Position numbers and translations under genes: made by a program. The notes below the pieces were generated by a model. That model was not told the origin of the DNA, ran no database searches, and saw only the letters and a list, made by a program, of their open reading frames with translations. Shown here one piece after another: positions 54,675-64,000 of a stretch of 64,000 bases of DNA (within the stretch, counting starts at the first letter, position 1; each line of letters opens with the position of its first letter). Origin of the DNA: Glycomyces luteolus (GTDB lineage Bacteria > Actinomycetota > Actinomycetes > Mycobacteriales > Micromonosporaceae); NCBI RefSeq assembly GCF_027622875.1, contig NZ_JAPZVP010000004.1:142217-206216 (forward strand), read 5' to 3'.

Positions 54675-54719
54675 AGTCGTCGCACGTCCAGGCAATGACG
54701 CTCCGTGAATGTAGTGCGC

Positions 54720-56135
54720 ATGACAACGACTCTGACGCAAACGACGGCTGAGAAGCCGACCGGTGCCCGCAAGGGCTGGATCAGCGACTGGCGTCCCGAC
54801 GACGAGGCCTTCTGGCAGTCGACGGGGCGCAAGATCGCCAGGCGCAACCTGGTCTGGTCCGTCCTCGCCGAGCACCTGGGCTTCTCGGTCTGGGTGATGT
54901 TCAGCATCATCACCCCGTACCTGGCCGCCGCCGGCTACGACTTCACCGTCAGCCAGCTGTTCTGGCTCACGGCCGTGCCGAACCTCGTCGGCTCGTTCCT
55001 GCGCATCCCCTACACGGCCGCCGTGGCCGTCTTCGGCGGACGCAACTGGACCATCATCTCCGCGGCCCTGCTCATCATCCCGACCGCGCTGCTGGCCTAC
55101 TGCCTGATGACGCCGGGCACCCCGTACTGGCTGTTCATCGCCGCGGGCGTCACCGCCGGTTTCGGCGGCGGCAACTTCGCCTCCTCGATGGCGAACATCT
55201 CCTACTTCTACCCGGAGCGCCACCGCGGCTCCGCCCTCGGCATCAACGCCGCGGGCGGCAACATCGGCGTCCCGGCCGTCCAGTTCATCGGCCCGTTCGT
55301 GATCGCCCTCGGCGTCTTCGGCGCCTCCCAGGGCGTCAACCCCGCGGGCCAGCAGATCTGGCTGCACAACGTGCCGCTGCTGTGGCTGGTCCTCGGCGTC
55401 TTCGCCGCGGTCATGGCCTGGCGATTCATGGACAACCTGTCGGTCGCCCGCACCCCCATCAAGGAGCAGCTGCCCGCGCTGACGCGCCGCCACACCTGGA
55501 TCATGAGCGTCCTCTACATCGGCACGTTCGGTTCCTTCATCGGCTACTCCTTCGCGTTCCCGCTGGTCATCAAGATCGAATTCCCCGAGTTCCAGTCGCT
55601 GTGGATCGCCGCGCTCGGCCCGCTCGTCGGCTCGGTCGTGCGCCCCTTCGGCGGCTGGCTCGCCGACAAGCTGGGCGGCGCCCCCATCACGAGCACCGGG
55701 TTCATCCTCATGGGCGTCGGGGCGATGGGCGCGATCTGGGGCGTCAACATCGGTTCGTTCGCGCTGTTCTTCACCTCCTTCATGGTGCTGTTCCTCATGA
55801 GCGGCATCGCCAACGGCTCGACCTACCGGTCGATCCCGGCGATCTTCCAGGCCGAGGCCGCCGCCGCGGCCGGAGGCGAGGCCAGCGAGACCGATATCGT
55901 GAAGGCCAAGAAGCTCACCGCCGCCGCGCTCGGCTGGATCTCCGCCATCGGCGCCTTCGGCGGGTTCCTCATCAACCAGGGCTTCCGCATCGCCAACGAG
56001 CAGACCGGCTCGGTCGTCACCGCCATGTGGGTCTTCGTCGGCGGCTACGCCGTCTTCCTGGTCCTGAACTGGTGGTGCTACCAGCGCACCGTCTTCGTGG
56101 AGAAGGCCCCGAGCCTCGCCCACGCCAAGGTCTGA
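54720..56135 (+). CDS. narK: Nitrate/nitrite transporter NarK
   Basis: This 471-residue major facilitator protein has about 12 segments. Nitrate-porter motifs are GFGGGNFASSMANISYFYPERHRGSA and the later GGWLADKLGG. It probably imports nitrate for the reductase encoded next. The ATG is at 54720; GTG 54705 is an alternative. The gene ends at the hairpin at 56173-56209. Confidence 0.94.
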   Translation: MTTTLTQTTAEKPTGARKGWISDWRPDDEAFWQSTGRKIARRNLVWSVLAEHLGFSVWVMFSIITPYLAAAGYDFTVSQLFWLTAVPNLVGSFLRIPYTAAVAVFGGRNWTIISAALLIIPTALLAYCLMTPGTPYWLFIAAGVTAGFGGGNFASSMANISYFYPERHRGSALGINAAGGNIGVPAVQFIGPFVIALGVFGASQGVNPAGQQIWLHNVPLLWLVLGVFAAVMAWRFMDNLSVARTPIKEQLPALTRRHTWIMSVLYIGTFGSFIGYSFAFPLVIKIEFPEFQSLWIAALGPLVGSVVRPFGGWLADKLGGAPITSTGFILMGVGAMGAIWGVNIGSFALFFTSFMVLFLMSGIANGSTYRSIPAIFQAEAAAAAGGEASETDIVKAKKLTAAALGWISAIGAFGGFLINQGFRIANEQTGSVVTAMWVFVGGYAVFLVLNWWCYQRTVFVEKAPSLAHAKV

Positions 56136-56270: not shown

Positions 56271-58319
56271 ATGACCGTTCGCGCCGCCCTCCCCGTCCTC
56301 CGCACCGCCGACACCCACTGCCCGTACTGCGCGCTCCAGTGCGGCATGCGGCTCGAGGAGGACACCGACGGCAAGGTCACCGCCTCCCCCCGCGGCGGCG
56401 GCATGTGCAAGAAGGGCTGGACCTCGCCCGAGCTCCTCGACCACCCCGAACGGCTCACCACCCCCCTCCTGCACGGCGAGCCCGTCTCCTGGGAGACCGC
56501 CCTCGACCACGTCGCCGACCGCATCCGGACGATCCAGGCCGAGCACGGGAAGGACGCCGTCGGCGTCTTCGGCGGCGGCGGCCTCACCAACGAGAAGGTC
56601 TACCAGCTCGGCAAATGGACCCGCCTCGCCTTGGGCAGCAAGCACATCGACTACAACGGCCGCTTCTGCATGTCCTCCGCGGCCGGGGCCCTCAACCGCT
56701 CCTTCGGCATCGACCGCGGCCTCCCCTTCCCGAAAGAGGACCTGCAGGACGCCGACGTGATCGTCCTCGTCGGCGCCAACCCGGCCGAGACCATGCCGCC
56801 GCTCATGCGGTTCCTCACCGGCGCCGAGCTCATCGTCATCGACCCCCGCCGCACCGCCACCGCCGAGCAGGCCCAGCTGCACCTCCAGCCCGCCCCCGGC
56901 ACCGACCTCGCGCTGGCGAACGGGCTCCTGCACATCGCGATCGAGCAGGGCTACCTCGACCACGACTACATCAAGGGCCACACGAACGGCTTCGACGAGG
57001 TCCGCCAGACCGTCGCCGGCTACTGGCCCGCGTTCGTCGAGCGCATCACCGGCGTCTCCGTGCCCGACCTGTACGCGGCCGCGCGCCTCATGGCCGGCAA
57101 GAAGACCGCGATCCTCACCGCCCGCGGCTCCGAGCAGCACGCCAAAGGCGTCGACACCGTCACCGCCTGGATCAACCTCGCCCTCGCGCTCGGCCTCCCC
57201 GGCAAGCCCAGCTCCGGCTACGGCTGCATCACCGGCCAGGGCAACGGCCAAGGCGGCCGCGAGCACGGCCAGAAGGCCGACCAGCTCCCCGGCTACCGCA
57301 TGATCACCGACCCAGCCGCGCGCGAGCACGTCGCCGCGGTCTGGGGCGTCGACCCCGAAACCCTTCCGGGCGCGGGCGTCTCCGCCGTCGAACTGCTGCG
57401 CAAATGCGGCGACGAAGTCAAGATGCTGTTCGTGCTCGGCTCCAACCCGGTCGTCTCGGCCCCCCGCGCCGCCCGCGTCGCCGACCGCCTCAAGGACCTC
57501 GACTGCCTCGTCTCGTTCGACTTCGTCATGTCCGAGACCGCCCGCCTCGCCGAAGTGGTCCTCCCGGTCACGCAGTGGGCCGAAGAGGACGGCACCATGA
57601 CCAACCTCGAGGGCCGCATCATCCGCCGCAAGTCCCTGCGCGGCGCCCCCGACGGCGTCCACTCCGACCTGTGGATCATGAAGGAGCTCGCCGCGCGCCT
57701 CGACGCCCCCGGCGCCTACTCGACCGATCCCGAGGAGATCTTCGAGGAACTCGGCCGCGCCTCCGCCGGCGGCAAAGCCGACTACTCCGGCGTCTCCTAT
57801 GAGCGCCTTGAGGACCGCACGTTCCAGTGGCCCGTCCCCAGCCCCGACCACGACGGCACCCCGCGCATGTTCGCCGACTTCAAGTTCCCCACCCCCGACG
57901 GCCGCGCCAAGTTCATCGCCGTCGACCACCGCCACCCCGCCGAACGCCGCGACCGCTCCTACCCCCTGTACCTCACCACCGGCCGGGTCCTCACCCAATA
58001 CCAGTCGGGCGCGCAGACCCGCCTCATCGAGTCCCTCGACGGACCCGACAGCGAGCAGTTCCTGCAGATCCACCCCGACACCGCGGTGCGCCACGGCATC
58101 GGCGAAGGGGACTGGGTCCGCATCACCTCCCGGCGCGGCTCCTACACGGCCCCCGCGCGGCTGACCACCGACATCCGGCCGGACACCGTCTTCAGCCCCT
58201 TCCACTTCCCCGGCGCGGCCAACGCCAACGCCGCCGTCTCGGACGTGCTCGACCCGATCAGCCGCATGCCCGAGTTCAAGGTCTGCGCCGTCAAGATCGC
58301 CCCGGCCGCGAAGCCCTGA
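56271..58319 (+). CDS. nasA: Assimilatory nitrate reductase catalytic subunit
   Basis: This 682-residue molybdopterin oxidoreductase binds a 4Fe-4S cluster through C17, C20, C24 and C46 (CPYCALQC and GGGMCKKGW). It has the bis-MGD domains of the NasA/NarB type, for example YNGRFCMSSAAGALNRSFGID and GSNPVVSAP. Formate dehydrogenases share the fold, but the narK neighbour favours nitrate. It should convert nitrate to nitrite in the cytoplasm. ATG start. No nitrite reductase large subunit is in this window. Confidence 0.85.
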   Translation: MTVRAALPVLRTADTHCPYCALQCGMRLEEDTDGKVTASPRGGGMCKKGWTSPELLDHPERLTTPLLHGEPVSWETALDHVADRIRTIQAEHGKDAVGVFGGGGLTNEKVYQLGKWTRLALGSKHIDYNGRFCMSSAAGALNRSFGIDRGLPFPKEDLQDADVIVLVGANPAETMPPLMRFLTGAELIVIDPRRTATAEQAQLHLQPAPGTDLALANGLLHIAIEQGYLDHDYIKGHTNGFDEVRQTVAGYWPAFVERITGVSVPDLYAAARLMAGKKTAILTARGSEQHAKGVDTVTAWINLALALGLPGKPSSGYGCITGQGNGQGGREHGQKADQLPGYRMITDPAAREHVAAVWGVDPETLPGAGVSAVELLRKCGDEVKMLFVLGSNPVVSAPRAARVADRLKDLDCLVSFDFVMSETARLAEVVLPVTQWAEEDGTMTNLEGRIIRRKSLRGAPDGVHSDLWIMKELAARLDAPGAYSTDPEEIFEELGRASAGGKADYSGVSYERLEDRTFQWPVPSPDHDGTPRMFADFKFPTPDGRAKFIAVDHRHPAERRDRSYPLYLTTGRVLTQYQSGAQTRLIESLDGPDSEQFLQIHPDTAVRHGIGEGDWVRITSRRGSYTAPARLTTDIRPDTVFSPFHFPGAANANAAVSDVLDPISRMPEFKVCAVKIAPAAKP

Positions 58320-59684: not shown

Positions 59685-60094
59685 CACGGCGGCTTGATCT
59701 CGAAATGCGTGCAGTGTCTGGGGCGAACGACGTTGAAGTACCGAAGGTCGACAGTTGCGACGGTGGAGATACTCAGACGCTCGGCGGCGGCGGCGACCGA
59801 TGCATCGGCGGTACCCAGTGGAAGATTGCTGTAGACGCTGGTGAGTTGCGCGATGCGAAGCCAATCCGACCGATGCACCGGCTCGACTGCGAAGGCACCG
59901 GATGCGAGATCGCCGAGGAACCGCACTTCCGTCTCGGTGCCGAGCCGTGTGGCCGCCAGGTAGGCGACTTCCGCGATGACGAGGGTGGGGACGACGAGGG
60001 CGCCCGGGTGGTTCTCGAGGAGGTCGAGGCATGCTTCGTGATGTTTGTCGTCGGCATCGAGATAGGCGTACAGCGGACCTGCGTCAACGACGAT
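59684..60094 (-). CDS. PIN-domain (VapC-like) protein without a canonical start codon
   Basis: The frame 60094-59684 (136 codons) encodes a complete-looking PIN nuclease fold. There is Asp in VVDAGPLYAY, Glu in VIAEVAYLAA, Asp in LGTADASVAAAAERL and Asp in VATVDLRYFN. Upstream the frame meets a TAG at 60121-60119, and no ATG, GTG or TTG lies between that stop and the first Asp. The gene must use a rare start such as ATC, be translated by re-initiation from the DUF1349 gene 35 bp upstream, or be broken. A GTG at 59926 would give only the C-terminal half. No antitoxin gene is adjacent. Confidence 0.6.
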   Translation of the reverse strand: MVVDAGPLYAYLDADDKHHEACLDLLENHPGALVVPTLVIAEVAYLAATRLGTETEVRFLGDLASGAFAVEPVHRSDWLRIAQLTSVYSNLPLGTADASVAAAAERLSISTVATVDLRYFNVVRPRHCTHFEIKPP

Positions 60095-60129
60095 GCTTTG
60101 GGCGGCCGGTCCAGGGCGCTATTGGCTGG

Positions 60130-60741
60130 TCAGGATCCGTTGCGGAGCTCGGCCAGGGTCTCCTGCTTGAAGGCGATATCGGTGAACTGGGCTTTGCAGC
60201 CCTGGCCCTCGGGGGCTTGGACGCCGAAGCCGGCCTTGATCGGGGCGTCGATTCCGAAGCCGAAGCAGCGCACGAACTCCCAGCGCTCGCCGTCGGAGGA
60301 CGCGTGGAAGACGAAGCCTTCGCCGACGCGGCTGACGCGCATCCAGACCGTGTCGCCCTCGACGTTCCAGGCGTTGGCGTCGTCGGAGATGCCTCGGGTG
60401 ACGACCGAGACCACCATGCCCTGCTCGTCGGGCGAGTACTCGAAGCACAGCTTCGACCAGTGGCTCTCGTCCGCGAGGAGGAAGAGGGTCCCCGCGTCGT
60501 ACGTGCCGTTGAAGTCCACGGTGATGCGGGCGCTGAACTGCCAGTCGCCCGCAGGCGGTTCGCCGAGGAGGCGGGCGCCGTTGGACGGGGCGTGGAGGGC
60601 GGGAGCGGGGGCGTAGACGTACCAGTCGGTGCCGGGCGCGGCGGTGGCTTCGAGACCCGCGTCGGTGACCTGCCAGCTCGGCGGCTCGACGGCGTCTTCC
60701 CAGTCGAGGGGGAAGGGAAGGGCGGGGAGGTTGACTGTCAT
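60130..60741 (-). CDS. DUF1349-family protein
   Basis: This 203-residue cytoplasmic protein of the concanavalin-A-like lectin/glucanase fold has the family motifs DWYVYAP, FSARITVDFNGTYDAGTLFL, WSKLCFEYS and WMRVSRVGEGFVFHASSDG. Related proteins may bind or act on sugars, but a function is not established. ATG start. The gene ends just before the PIN-domain frame. Confidence 0.88.
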   Translation of the reverse strand: MTVNLPALPFPLDWEDAVEPPSWQVTDAGLEATAAPGTDWYVYAPAPALHAPSNGARLLGEPPAGDWQFSARITVDFNGTYDAGTLFLLADESHWSKLCFEYSPDEQGMVVSVVTRGISDDANAWNVEGDTVWMRVSRVGEGFVFHASSDGERWEFVRCFGFGIDAPIKAGFGVQAPEGQGCKAQFTDIAFKQETLAELRNGS

Positions 60742-60860
60742 GCGGTCAGCCTAGCGGCGTGCGGGAGCGTCGCTACTTCTTTGTTCGACCGTCGAGAAAA
60801 GGGGAGGAGCGGCATCCTCAAGGGGGCGTTGAGCGTCGAGGGCGGGCCGAGCCCCGGGCA

Positions 60861-61820
60861 TCAGCCGCCGCGGTTCGGGGCGGCGGGTCGGAGTCGCCGG
60901 GGGAGCAGGAACTCCTGGGTCTCGCGGGTGTGGACTCGTTCGACGATCTCGATCGGGCCCAGTTCGGCCAGGGACCGGACCACTTCGTCGACCAGTCGCG
61001 GTGGCGCGGAGGCTCCCGCGGTGACGGCCACGGTCGAGGCCTCCTCGAGCCATCGCGGATCGATGGCCCGCGCGTCTTCGATCAAGTGCGCCTCGACTCC
61101 CGCGGTTCTCGCGAGTTCCACCAGGCGGTTCGAGTTCGAGGAGTTCGCCGATCCGAGCACCAGGACGAGGTCGGCCTCCTCCACGACCGCGGCGACCGCC
61201 GCTTGGCGATTGCTCGTGGCGTAGCAGATGTCATCGGCCCCTTGACCTTTGATCGCGGGAAAGCGCTGCTTCAGCGCCTCTGCGATGGTCTCGACCTCGG
61301 CCACCGCGAGCGTCGTCTGGCTCAGGTACGTGAGCTTCGCCGGGTCGGGCACTCGCAGTGTCGCCACGGCATCGGCGCTCTCGACGAGGAGGGTTCTTTC
61401 CGGGGCCACGCCGATCGTGCCGACGACTTCTTCGTGGCCTTCGTGTCCGATCAGGATCACCGTGTCGCCGTTGTCGGCCGCGCGTTTGGCCTCCGCGTGG
61501 ACCTTTGACACCAGCGGGCAGGTCGCGTCGACCGCGTCGAGGCCGCGGGCGGCCGCCTCGCGTTCGACCGCCGGGGCCACGCCGTGGGCGCTGAAGACCA
61601 CGAGCGCGTCGTCGGGAACCTCGTCGAGCTCGCCGACGAAGACCGCCCCGCGCGACTCCAGATCCGCCACCACGTGCGCGTTGTGGACGATCTGGTTGCG
61701 CACGTACACGGGCGGTCCGTGATCCTCGAGGAGGCGTTCGACGATCTCGATCGCCCGCTCCACTCCGGCGCAGAACGACCGCGGCGCGGGGAGGAGCACG
61801 CGACGGAGTCGGCGAGTCAT
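60861..61820 (-). CDS. ispH: 4-hydroxy-3-methylbut-2-enyl diphosphate reductase
   Basis: This 319-residue enzyme makes IPP and DMAPP in the last step of the MEP pathway. The 4Fe-4S cysteines are C17 (FCAGV), C101 (DATCPLV) and C199 (ICYATSNRQ), and the substrate motif VLGSANSSNSNRL is present. The ATG 61820 overlaps the stop of a 33-codon frame (ATGA), so its translation may depend on the polyprenyl synthetase message. It feeds the prenyl synthase encoded upstream. Confidence 0.95.
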   Translation of the reverse strand: MTRRLRRVLLPAPRSFCAGVERAIEIVERLLEDHGPPVYVRNQIVHNAHVVADLESRGAVFVGELDEVPDDALVVFSAHGVAPAVEREAAARGLDAVDATCPLVSKVHAEAKRAADNGDTVILIGHEGHEEVVGTIGVAPERTLLVESADAVATLRVPDPAKLTYLSQTTLAVAEVETIAEALKQRFPAIKGQGADDICYATSNRQAAVAAVVEEADLVLVLGSANSSNSNRLVELARTAGVEAHLIEDARAIDPRWLEEASTVAVTAGASAPPRLVDEVVRSLAELGPIEIVERVHTRETQEFLLPRRLRPAAPNRGG

Positions 61821-61918
61821 CGGCTGGCCTCTCGGTGGCGCTCGCAAGTCTCCGGTTGGCGTTCCCGGCAATGCTTGCGGGTCATCAGTCGGCACCCTTG
61901 GCGATGCTTGCGAGCCAT
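61817..61918 (-). CDS. 33-codon bridging ORF between polyprenyl synthetase and ispH
   Basis: The frame starts at an ATG that shares its A with the upstream TGA (TGATG, 61920-61916). It ends at a TGA overlapping the ispH ATG (ATGA, 61820-61817). The peptide is rich in Arg, His and Cys, with repeated RKHRQGC and RKHCRERQ. Its DNA contains two copies of a repeat core also found at 51.5 kb. It may be only a coupling device, or a repeat that inserted. No family is known. Confidence 0.4.
   Translation of the reverse strand: MARKHRQGCRLMTRKHCRERQPETCERHREASR
61860..61918 (-). repeat. Second locus of the ATGGCTCGCAAGC-type repeat
   Basis: Two degenerate units 33 bp apart start at 61918 and 61885 on the minus strand; the first matches the 51.5-kb copy at about 25 of 28 positions. 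Confidence 0.65.
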
Positions 61919-62934
61919 CAATTGGCCCTGTGGACCGTGCTCGCGGCCAGCCCCGTCAGTTCCTCGACGGCCTCTGCCCGGAGTCCTTCCACGCTGAGGC
62001 TGCCGGTGGCGGCTTCGGTGAGCAGTTCCGCGGAGCGCCGGCTCGCCTGCCTGCCGCCGCAGGCCTCGACGAGGTCGGCGGCGCGGCGGAGTTCGGCCTC
62101 GGTGAGCTGCCCGGTGGCGCCGTAGATCGCGGCGAGCTCGGACGCGTCGGGATGCCCCGAGTCGAGCGCCGCGGTCACCGGGAGCGACTTCTTGCGGTTG
62201 CGCAGGTCCGAGTACACGGCCTTGCCGGTCACCGCCGGGTCGCCCCAGATCCCCAGCAGGTCGTCCACGTGCTGGAACGCCAGCCCGAGGCGGTAGCCGA
62301 AGTCCCGCAGCGCGTCCACCTGCTGCGGGGTGCCGCCGCCGAAGAGCGCCCCGAGCGCGGTCGCGCAGCCCATGAGCGAGGCCGTCTTCGCCTCGGACAT
62401 CGCGACGCATTCGGCGAGCTCGACCCGGTCGCGGCTCTCGAACCGCGTGTCGGCGAGCTGCCCTTCGATGAGGGCCCGCACGGTCTGCGCGAGGAGGCTC
62501 GTGCCCGCCGGGACCCGGTCGCCGCCGGATTCGGCGATGATCTCGAACGCCAGCGCGTGCAGGGCGTCGCCGACGAGGATCGCGTCGTTGACGCCGTAGA
62601 CCTTCCAGGCGGTCGGGCGGTGCCGCCGCAGGCTGTCGCGGTCGATGATGTCGTCGTGGATGAGGGAGAAGTTGTGGACCATCTCGACGGCCACGGCCGC
62701 CGGGACGGCCTGCCGCCAGCCCGCTTCGCTGCCGACCGCCTTGGCGGCCAGCAGGGTCAGGAGCGGCCGCAGGGCCTTGCCGGAGTTGGCCTGGACGGGC
62801 GAGCCGGAGGCGTCGGTCCAGCCGAAGTGGTAGGCCGCGATGCGCGCGGCGGGGGCCGGGAGCCGGGCGGCGGCGGCGCGGAGTCCCGCGTCGACGGCCT
62901 CGCGGGCGGCGGTGTGGTCGGTCAGGACGGTCAT
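61918..62934 (-). CDS. Polyprenyl synthetase, likely encapsulin cargo
   Basis: This 338-residue trans-prenyltransferase condenses DMAPP and IPP. The first aspartate-rich motif is D94-D95-I-I-D98 with D100. The second is D224-D225-L-L-G-I-W-G-D232, a variant common in actinobacterial prenyl synthases near encapsulins. Product length cannot be read from sequence alone. The ATG 62934 has AGGGAGG 6 nt upstream and an in-frame stop further up, so there is no long N-terminal tail. It lies between ispH and a family 2B encapsulin gene. Confidence 0.92.
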   Translation of the reverse strand: MTVLTDHTAAREAVDAGLRAAAARLPAPAARIAAYHFGWTDASGSPVQANSGKALRPLLTLLAAKAVGSEAGWRQAVPAAVAVEMVHNFSLIHDDIIDRDSLRRHRPTAWKVYGVNDAILVGDALHALAFEIIAESGGDRVPAGTSLLAQTVRALIEGQLADTRFESRDRVELAECVAMSEAKTASLMGCATALGALFGGGTPQQVDALRDFGYRLGLAFQHVDDLLGIWGDPAVTGKAVYSDLRNRKKSLPVTAALDSGHPDASELAAIYGATGQLTEAELRRAADLVEACGGRQASRRSAELLTEAATGSLSVEGLRAEAVEELTGLAASTVHRAN

Positions 62935-63016
62935 GCGGGGCCTCCCTGGGCGGCGGGGTCTGCGGGGAACGCGTTGGCGTTAGGGGGTGCCCGGGCATCC
63001 CGGACACCCCCTGGGG

Positions 63017-63054
63017 CCCGGGCGGCCGCCCAAGTGCGGGGGCGGCCGCCCGGG
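63017..63054 (-). terminator. Strong hairpin between encapsulin and polyprenyl synthetase genes
   Basis: A perfect 15-bp stem (63017-63031 / 63040-63054) with an 8-nt loop begins 4 bp past the encapsulin stop. A further hairpin-like stretch (AGGGGGTG/CACCCCCT, 62982-63012) lies closer to the synthetase start. Confidence 0.75.
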
Positions 63055-63058
63055 ATTC

Positions 63059-64000
63059 TCAGCGTCCGATCTCGACGTGCTCGAGGATGCCGAGCGCGTC
63101 CGGGACCAGGACCGCGACGGAGTAGTAGGCGCTCACGAGGTAGGACATGACGGCCTTCTCGTCGATGCCCATGAACCGCACGGAGAGCCCGGGCTCGTAC
63201 TCGTCGGGCAGGCCGGTCTGGTGCAGGCCGACGACGCCCTGGTCGGCTTCGCCGGTGCGCATGCAGAGGATCGAGGTGGTGCGCGCCGAGGTGATCGGGA
63301 TCTTGTTGCACGGCAGGATCGGGATGCCCCGCCATGCCGGGATGTGGTGCCCGTGGAAGTCCACCGTGTTCGGGTAGATGCCGCGCTTGGTGCATTCGCG
63401 GCCGAACGCGGCGATCGCCTTCGGGTGGGCGAGGAGGAACTCGGGCTTGCGGCGGCGGCTGATGAGCTCGTCCATGTCGTCCGGGGTGGGCGGCCCGGAG
63501 CGGGTGGGGATGCGCTGGCTCAGCGCCGCGTTGTGCAGGAGTCCGAACTCCTTGTTGTTCACCATCTGGTCCTCCTGCTGCTCGCGCAGGGCTTCCACGG
63601 TGAGCCGCAGCTGCTGCTCCATCTGGTTCATCGGCTTGTTGTAGAGGTCCGCGACGCGGGTGTGGACGCGCAGCACCGTCTGTGCCACCGACAGCTCGTA
63701 CTCGCGGGGCGTGAGCTCGTAGTCGACGAACGTGCGCGGCAGGTCCGGTTCGCCGGTGTGGCCGGCCGCGATGGCGATCGCCGACTCGCCGTGCTTGTTC
63801 GTGTTCGCCGAGCGGACGGCCTCCCGGAACTGCTCCAGATGCGACGCGAGCGCCGGGATGCGCTCCACGAGCTCGGCGACTGCGGCGGCAGGGAGGGTGA
63901 GCACGGTGACCGGGGTCGCCGCGATGACGTCGTGGTCCCACACTGGATCGTCTTCGGTGAGGACCTCGTCGCCGAAGTGGTCGCCGTCGACCATGAGCCC
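63059..64000 (-). CDS. Family 2B encapsulin shell protein with cyclic-nucleotide-binding domain (5' end missing)
   Basis: At least 313 residues are visible, and the N-terminal part continues past 64000. The visible start is the last part of a cyclic-nucleotide-binding fold ([14 protein letters not shown]). A linker helix (~60-80) and an HK97-type shell domain follow. Shell motifs are [64 protein letters not shown] and a C-terminus ending [13 protein letters not shown]. Family 2B shells are known to house terpenoid enzymes. A neighbouring prenyl synthetase and ispH support that cargo type. The first gene of the locus should lie just beyond the window. Confidence 0.94.

Follow-up and report, generated by a model that had tools for sequence, protein, structure and literature searches.

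The 64,000-nucleotide stretch of Glycomyces luteolus DNA analyzed here (the window; contig NZ_JAPZVP010000004.1, positions 142,217 to 206,216) ends inside a gene for a family 2B encapsulin shell protein, which is followed on the same strand by genes for a polyprenyl synthase and for IspH, the last enzyme of the methylerythritol phosphate (MEP) pathway. In this soil bacterium, the locus raises the question of which enzyme the shell takes up and what a precursor-forming reductase contributes next to a protein compartment. The initial annotation had described the three genes as one unit at 61817-64000, with the synthase as likely cargo. The window end indeed carries the shell end of a terpene-type family 2B encapsulin locus; loci of this class have been published, and accessory IspH is a common companion in them. 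As the best explanation of the gene content, we consider it fairly probable that the shell would take up a terpene cyclase encoded just beyond the window, with the synthase and the accessory IspH supplying the substrate.

The part of the shell gene inside the window (63059..64000, minus strand) codes for the C-terminal two thirds of the protein and reaches 554 bits against the family 2B shell model NF041163 (cut-off 400). Positions beyond the window were taken from L002, a section of 20 kb around the window end, whose coordinates become window coordinates by adding 57783. In extended window coordinates, the whole gene spans 63059-64486 (L002:5276-6703); its 475-aa product matches NF041163 along all 450 model positions with 768.6 bits. 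The SrpI-like HK97 shell domain PF19307 covers residues 225-475 (469 bits, cut-off 22.8), a domain like those binding cyclic nucleoside monophosphates (cNMP) is fused into the shell at residues 122-209 (PF00027; 52 bits, cut-off 27.5), and 24 residues precede the start of the NF041163 match as an N-terminal extension (about 18 aa expected). Further down the minus strand follow, after a gap of 124 bp, the gene for a polyprenyl synthase of 338 aa, of the type for farnesyl diphosphate (FPP) or geranylgeranyl diphosphate (GGPP) (61918..62934; PF00348, 205 bits) and, after another 97 bp, the accessory ispH gene for 4-hydroxy-3-methylbut-2-enyl diphosphate reductase (60861..61820; TIGR00216, 300 bits, cut-off 187.85; PF02401, 310 bits). 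The second gap shrinks to 22 bp if ispH starts at an alternative GTG at 61895 instead of the ATG at 61820. The synthase motifs HDDxxD and DDLLG are invariant across 12 aligned rows, and the cysteine-bearing IspH stretches FCAGV, DATCPL and DDICYAT, which we take to hold the cluster-binding cysteines, align with solved IspH. These matches bear out the earlier proposal that terpenoid genes accompany a family 2B shell here. The locus at 61817-64000 is thus real, but the body of ispH lies outside this span and the shell gene is cut by the window edge; the remainder of the shell and the terpene cyclase suspected further on were both found just past position 64000. A 396-aa open reading frame at 61817-63007 (minus strand) and other overlapping frames in the region were rejected because they conflict with the profile-supported genes.

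The conservation of this neighbourhood was first evident in the Glycomyces genomes, meaning the members of the window genome's own genus group. Because shell and ispH genes are neighbours in all 14 genomes examined and the synthase gene lies between them in all eight loci read, their pairing is not due to chance, and the synteny proposed for comparison in the initial annotation holds in this genus. The genus itself agrees with the placement in the Glycomycetaceae suggested there, the nearest named synthase being that of Glycomyces sp. YM15 with 96% identity (synthase-alignment scan of named genomes, best 80 of 588). The order of a PF14023 gene, shell, synthase and ispH recurs in 8/8 loci, and the cyclase is also present in seven of them; the contig of the eighth, L045, ends before the cyclase. 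In six further Glycomyces genomes, the shell is located about 1 kb from the second IspH, with a cyclase within a few kb on the same contig.

A family sample of 121 genomes, which is wider than the Glycomycetaceae and includes, e.g., Stackebrandtia, Catellatospora, Longispora and Micromonospora species, contained a family 2B shell above the cut-off in 51 genomes. We read 60 of its 66 shell clusters (those of G087, G098, G100, G109, G112 and G118 are outside this set) together with a broken shell copy in genome G066, giving 61 loci, and compared them by tblastn using the window genome's own proteins; several of the contigs are short, and absences there may represent missing data. ispH was found in 23 of the 61 loci, namely in 22 of 45 that have a synthase match and in one of 16 that lack it (Fisher p = 0.002), and omitting the eight Glycomyces loci left 14/37 vs. 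1/16 (p = 0.02). IspH goes with the synthase in shell loci; in one of the 22 loci containing both, L073, the synthase is nearer to another subfamily.

The named sample consists of the best 80 of 588 synthase relatives, so that its shares describe close relatives only; its loci were selected by their synthase, and neighbours were counted within 9 kb. A family 2B shell was present at 44 of the 80 synthases, and 23 of these 44 loci have ispH on the synthase strand, 16 a terpene cyclase and 7 also dxs. The 23 loci with shell and ispH belong to Glycomyces, Saccharothrix, Kribbella, Actinokineospora, a metagenome-assembled genome of the Pseudonocardiaceae, Stackebrandtia, Saccharopolyspora, Lentzea, Streptosporangium, Nocardiopsis, Microtetraspora, Spongiactinospora and Prauserella. 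Because more than half of the shell-linked loci across so many genera carry it, IspH beside a shell is widespread in actinobacterial synthase-type loci and not peculiar to the window genome, and the earlier view that IspH is less common near encapsulins did not hold. The dxs loci stem from six Lentzea and one Nocardiopsis (L148, L150, L154, L155, L157, L160, L176) and are two-shell loci with the order shell - cyclase - shell - synthase - ispH - dxs. Since dxs and ispH code for the first and last enzymes of the MEP pathway, the last enzyme is encoded in the same locus as the shell, and in these seven named loci the first one is, too. Another 23 of the 80 synthases have a squalene-hopene cyclase as neighbour and belong to hopanoid loci, six of which also contain IspH, and the remaining 13 have neither a shell nor a squalene-hopene cyclase nearby, some of them lying at contig ends.

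The origin of the locus IspH was traced in a tree of 43 rows, from which the row L078_17839m had been dropped for a branch length above 7 in the first tree. Two IspH genes are present in the window genome, as in all 14 Glycomyces genomes. The 21 IspH proteins of synthase-type encapsulin loci and 10 from hopanoid clusters fall on one side of a branch supported with 98/93, and grouping the locus IspH with the window genome's own housekeeping IspH was rejected by the approximately unbiased test (p-AU 1e-72). Judged from this tree, the copy in the locus is an accessory IspH paralogue that falls with the IspH of hopanoid clusters, and it is not a copy of the housekeeping gene. The encapsulin-linked IspH group by itself obtained weak support (63/52), and a synthase tree was poorly resolved and was not used.

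This shared branch also bears on an alternative explanation, according to which synthase and ispH are a precursor pair that travels with many terpenoid loci and is merely a neighbour of the shell, without any cooperation. In the hopanoid clusters, such as L110 with the order synthase - squalene-hopene cyclase - IspH - HpnH - Dxs, the same synthase family and a neighbouring IspH lineage serve as a precursor cassette, but no shell was found in them, and squalene-hopene cyclase and HpnH replace the terpene cyclase. The synthase family and IspH occur together in 10/10 of the hopanoid second-IspH loci L106-L115 (squalene-hopene cyclase and HpnH in 10/10, Dxs in 7/10) as well as in the 6/80 named hopanoid loci mentioned above. 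In addition, G066 retains synthase and ispH next to a broken shell gene (L089:9673-10083), a 194-aa frame matching only model positions 1-85 and 389-450; in this relative, the shell core seems to have been lost and the precursor genes kept. Of the two observations that would separate ispH from the shell according to the initial annotation, ispH without a shell is thus found in part. What speaks against a mere neighbourhood is its conservation with the shell across many genera and a separate second recruitment of IspH into shell loci of the 2-methylisoborneol (2-MIB) type, and we consider the alternative unlikely.

The 2-MIB-type family 2B loci L054 and L073 share shell, terpene cyclase and ispH with the Glycomyces locus and differ from it by a methyltransferase for geranyl diphosphate (GPP); a single-domain 2-MIB-type cyclase was confirmed in L054, and L073 has a two-domain-type cyclase match. 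Their own IspH proteins branch on the other side of the 98/93 branch near housekeeping IspH, which indicates a separate recruitment, and a single clade of synthase-type and 2-MIB-type encapsulin IspH was rejected (p-AU 1.6e-7; the 2-MIB group was defined once the first tree had been seen). The trees thus point to at least two separate recruitments of IspH into family 2B shell loci, and this repeated recruitment supports precursor supply as its function. The supply role assigned to ispH in the initial annotation is therefore likely, with the specification that this is the second, accessory copy. The simplest reading of the relationships would be an accessory precursor cassette of synthase, IspH and sometimes Dxs that is common to hopanoid and encapsulin loci, and a separate IspH recruitment by the 2-MIB loci. 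In one further locus, L116 of genome G031, a second IspH gene accompanies a PF00348-type synthase gene, dxs and a GPP-methyltransferase-like gene, with no shell match in 20 kb.

The terpene cyclase gene of the locus is located beyond the window on the minus strand, in a frame open from L002:10602 down to 7141 with two PF19086 stretches. Both domains contain metal motifs (DDHFL/NDLFSYERE and DDYYP/NDVCSYQKE), the N-terminal domain matches the solved germacradienol/geosmin synthase with 530 bits, and the protein reaches 1091.2 bits against the cargo model NF041168 (f2_encap_cargo3), under the cut-off of 1200. In a search restricted to PF19086, it was the sole enzyme with such domains in 9/9 Glycomyces genomes, and in each of the nine its gene is no more than a few kb away from that of the shell. 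For cyclases of this kind, a motif resembling GPTGLGTSAAR has been described between the two domains and repeated at the C-terminus (main text of PMC8346489). The interdomain linker of the window genome's cyclase contains the putative loading motif GPNGIGTGAAR, and the pattern is matched by six of seven Glycomyces cyclases, the seventh (L048) reading RPNGIGTSAGR. No C-terminal repeat was found by pattern in these seven cyclases; a match GAGGVGSAGAV in the window genome's cyclase frame was judged spurious, as it lies far downstream, opposite a convergent gene.

The initial annotation had favoured the synthase as cargo, and in this alternative the shell would enclose a factory for short-chain prenyl diphosphates whose product leaves by the pores, the cyclase being a mere neighbour. 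The synthase family is indeed labelled an encapsulin cargo in NCBIfam (NF041169, "family 2 encapsulin cargo polyprenyl transferase", f2_encap_cargo4), the Glycomyces synthase scoring 426.3 bits just under the cut-off of 450; the cyclase is likewise below its own cut-off. Moreover, 44 of the 60 intact shell clusters have a synthase match nearby, often directly downstream of the shell, and 9 of the 23 named loci with shell and ispH (the synthase being there by construction) are without a cyclase within 9 kb, so that the synthase would be the sole cargo candidate there. However, the published polyprenyl synthase cargo has a disordered N-terminus of 50-100 residues (main text of PMC8346489), for which the synthase of the window has no room: only 34 aa separate its ATG from the conserved YHFGW, and only 15 further codons precede the ATG before a stop. 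The published candidate motif is instead carried by the cyclase. A short LxW[SAG]R-like segment was seen at the N-terminus of 28/39 shell-linked synthases outside Glycomyces and in 0/23 hopanoid-linked ones, but also in 7/12 linked to neither and in 0/4 from Glycomyces, counting loci with the landmark YHxGW (one shell-linked locus and one linked to neither were dropped for its absence). An earlier pattern had given 15/43, 0/23 and 3/12 for shell-linked, hopanoid-linked and other synthases, and both patterns were written after viewing such sequences; the segment is a weak candidate for a loading tag. Because the linker motif is present in the cyclase and the long N-terminal tail is missing in the synthase, we regard the cyclase as the better cargo candidate and cargo status of the synthase as doubtful.

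The initial annotation had further suggested that ligand sensing by the cyclic-nucleotide-binding fold could govern the compartment, i.e., that the shell senses a cyclic nucleotide via its inserted domain and thereby gates the enzymes. The fold is present, as the PF00027 score well above the cut-off indicates. The arginine at the cassette position aligned with that of cGMP-dependent protein kinase holds the phosphate in cyclic-nucleotide-binding proteins, but it is replaced by tryptophan in 69 of 74 full-length shells (Trp183 in that of the window genome), and none of the 74 has an arginine there. According to a 2025 paper (PMC12407261), the inserted domain of a related family 2B shell binds no cyclic nucleotides. 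Since the ligand arginine is absent from all 74 shells compared, sensing of cyclic nucleotides appears unlikely, and we rejected gating by them as very improbable. Some other ligand of the inserted domain is possible. Among the shell frames of unusual structure, two adjacent frames of 481 and 463 aa in G183:C32:37731-41016 match the shell model only at its ends (positions 1-76 and 417-450); they adjoin a PF14023 gene, two whole shells are encoded elsewhere on the contig, and they are perhaps divergent shells.

The genes of the locus do not form an uninterrupted series. A GC-rich hairpin of 15 bp (63017..63054, minus strand) directly follows the shell stop codon ahead of the synthase gene and shows paired changes in the Glycomyces loci: over 11 of them, 91.5% of the cells are paired, compared to 35-48% in slid controls, and nine cells are changed on both sides vs. 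a shuffled mean of 2.8. The alignment stretches were picked after the folds had been seen; L046 pairs badly at the aligned position and has its main hairpin further down, and L127, from the same species, was omitted. Outside Glycomyces, genera differ: some have a strong hairpin (e.g., L131, L134, L136), whereas in others it does not exceed shuffled sequences. A search of window positions 60000-64000 against Rfam at the gathering threshold gave no match. The second interruption is a convergent gene on the plus strand between the cyclase and the PF14023 gene (L002:7655-8287, an open frame), whose product is proline-rich with a signal-like start and a hydrophobic C-terminal end; an opposite-strand frame is present at this place in 11/11 Glycomyces loci examined. 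The frame of the window genome's cyclase continues through the convergent gene without a stop, and because its long 3' part overlaps this gene, it is uncertain where the cyclase really ends. The gene order, as read from the sequence and kept across the Glycomyces loci read, is cyclase - (convergent gene) - PF14023 gene - shell - synthase - IspH. Given the strong hairpin between shell and synthase and the convergent gene that sets the cyclase apart, the sequence does not demonstrate a single transcript, and the earlier description of one unit is not supported. The hairpin probably tunes expression of the shell relative to the enzymes, raising shell mRNA above synthase-ispH mRNA.

In the pathway we propose for the terpene-type locus, the shell would form a T=1 particle by analogy with a solved family 2B shell (PMC12407261) and take up a two-domain cyclase that resembles germacradienol/geosmin synthase and would be recognized by the Gly/Pro/Ala-rich motif of its linker. 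Acting in soluble form as a supplier and not as cargo, the accessory IspH would raise the pool of isopentenyl and dimethylallyl diphosphate (IPP/DMAPP). The synthase, working at or inside the shell, would condense these to the C15 (or C20) diphosphate, and the enclosed cyclase would convert FPP to a geosmin-type sesquiterpenoid. Several observations weigh against this pathway. ispH and shell are located on opposite strands in three of the 22 family loci containing synthase and ispH (L073, L078, L095), and the convergent gene cuts the cyclase off from the other genes. The C-terminal motif repeat was not found in the Glycomyces cyclases, no cyclase is seen near the shell in nine named loci with ispH, and synthase and ispH persist in G066 with the shell core gone. 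Should the synthase produce GGPP, a geosmin synthase would receive no substrate from it.

Among known systems, the closest are family 2B loci with a terpene cyclase (TC) and a polyprenyl transferase (PT), of which 165 with both enzymes were reported (Andreas and Giessen 2021, PMC8346489), and the main text of that paper states that precursor genes occur in PT systems. The Glycomyces locus resembles them in its shell with an inserted cNMP-like domain, its two-domain cyclase similar to geosmin synthase, the linker resembling GPTGLGTSAAR, the polyprenyl synthase and the nearby precursor genes. It differs from the systems described there, as the synthase is without the 50-100 aa disordered N-terminus and no C-terminal repeat was seen in the Glycomyces cyclases. 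IspH (0 occurrences) and DUF4239 or bestrophin are not named in the main text, supplements excluded. The locus provides defined candidate partners for a geosmin-type nanocompartment, so that compartment and supply line become testable as one block. A comparable pairing is the idsB-lytB1 pair of the mycobacterial tuberculosinyl adenosine locus, which we take to be a GGPP synthase gene beside an accessory ispH gene. The Glycomyces synthase scores 325 bits against the IdsB model NF045549, below its cut-off of 475, and we know of no shell in the mycobacterial locus.

The least expected result was the membrane protein encoded 55 bp upstream of the shell on the same strand (L002:6759-7577, counted from an ATG judged likely; minus strand). 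It was assigned to PF14023 by its domain score and a four-helix membrane fold and is a predicted bestrophin-like channel, with 10% identity to a bacterial bestrophin homologue of solved structure (4wd7). A match along the length of the gene was obtained in 13 of the 14 Glycomyces genomes; in G121, it covers only positions 156-231 of 232. In the family sample, 27 of 77 PF14023 copies lie within 10 kb of a family 2B shell vs. 0.3 expected, and outside the family, 6 of 30 copies do so vs. 0.05 expected, the expected numbers being based on rounded genome sizes. These counts leave out matches below the cut-off (3/80 in the family and 5/39 in the search outside it) and, for the second sample, four Glycomyces copies that had already been counted; broken or partial shells are not contained in the 84 family shells and 32 outside-family shells used. 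Co-direction with the shell, seen for 26/27 copies in the family, was found for 2/6 in the held-out sample and did not hold. In the PF14023 tree, the "near" group comprises 41 rows and the "far" group 20 of 50 copies; for three "near" rows (L158, L168, L193), the synthase locus of origin showed no shell, and three pairs of rows are identical, from species present in two collections.

A partnership of such proteins with shells is apparently undescribed: by title and abstract, we found no literature linking encapsulins with IspH, DUF4239, bestrophin or methylerythritol, supplements being excluded; some of these genes may be listed in Fig. S5 of PMC8346489. We suggest, rather tentatively, that the predicted bestrophin-fold channel may regularly partner with family 2B encapsulins of the terpene type, either docking the shell at the membrane or setting ionic conditions for the enclosed cyclase (e.g., diphosphate removal or local ion balance). 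These seemingly soluble nanocompartments would then work at the membrane, where their hydrophobic products must go. If functional, the association would tie encapsulins to membranes, and it might help to explain the ligand of the inserted domain and the exit of terpenoids from family 2B shells. Outside Glycomyces, a small gene for 159-177 aa adjoins the bestrophin-like gene in three loci (L100:10744-11277, minus strand; L081:5421-5900 and L074:1914-2429, plus strand), and two of the three products show a weak match to the allene oxide cyclase barrel (17-20 bits, below the cut-off).

Elsewhere in the window, a gene for a molybdopterin oxidoreductase resembling assimilatory nitrate reductase (56271-58319, plus strand) adjoins one for a NarK-type transporter (54705-56135, plus strand).

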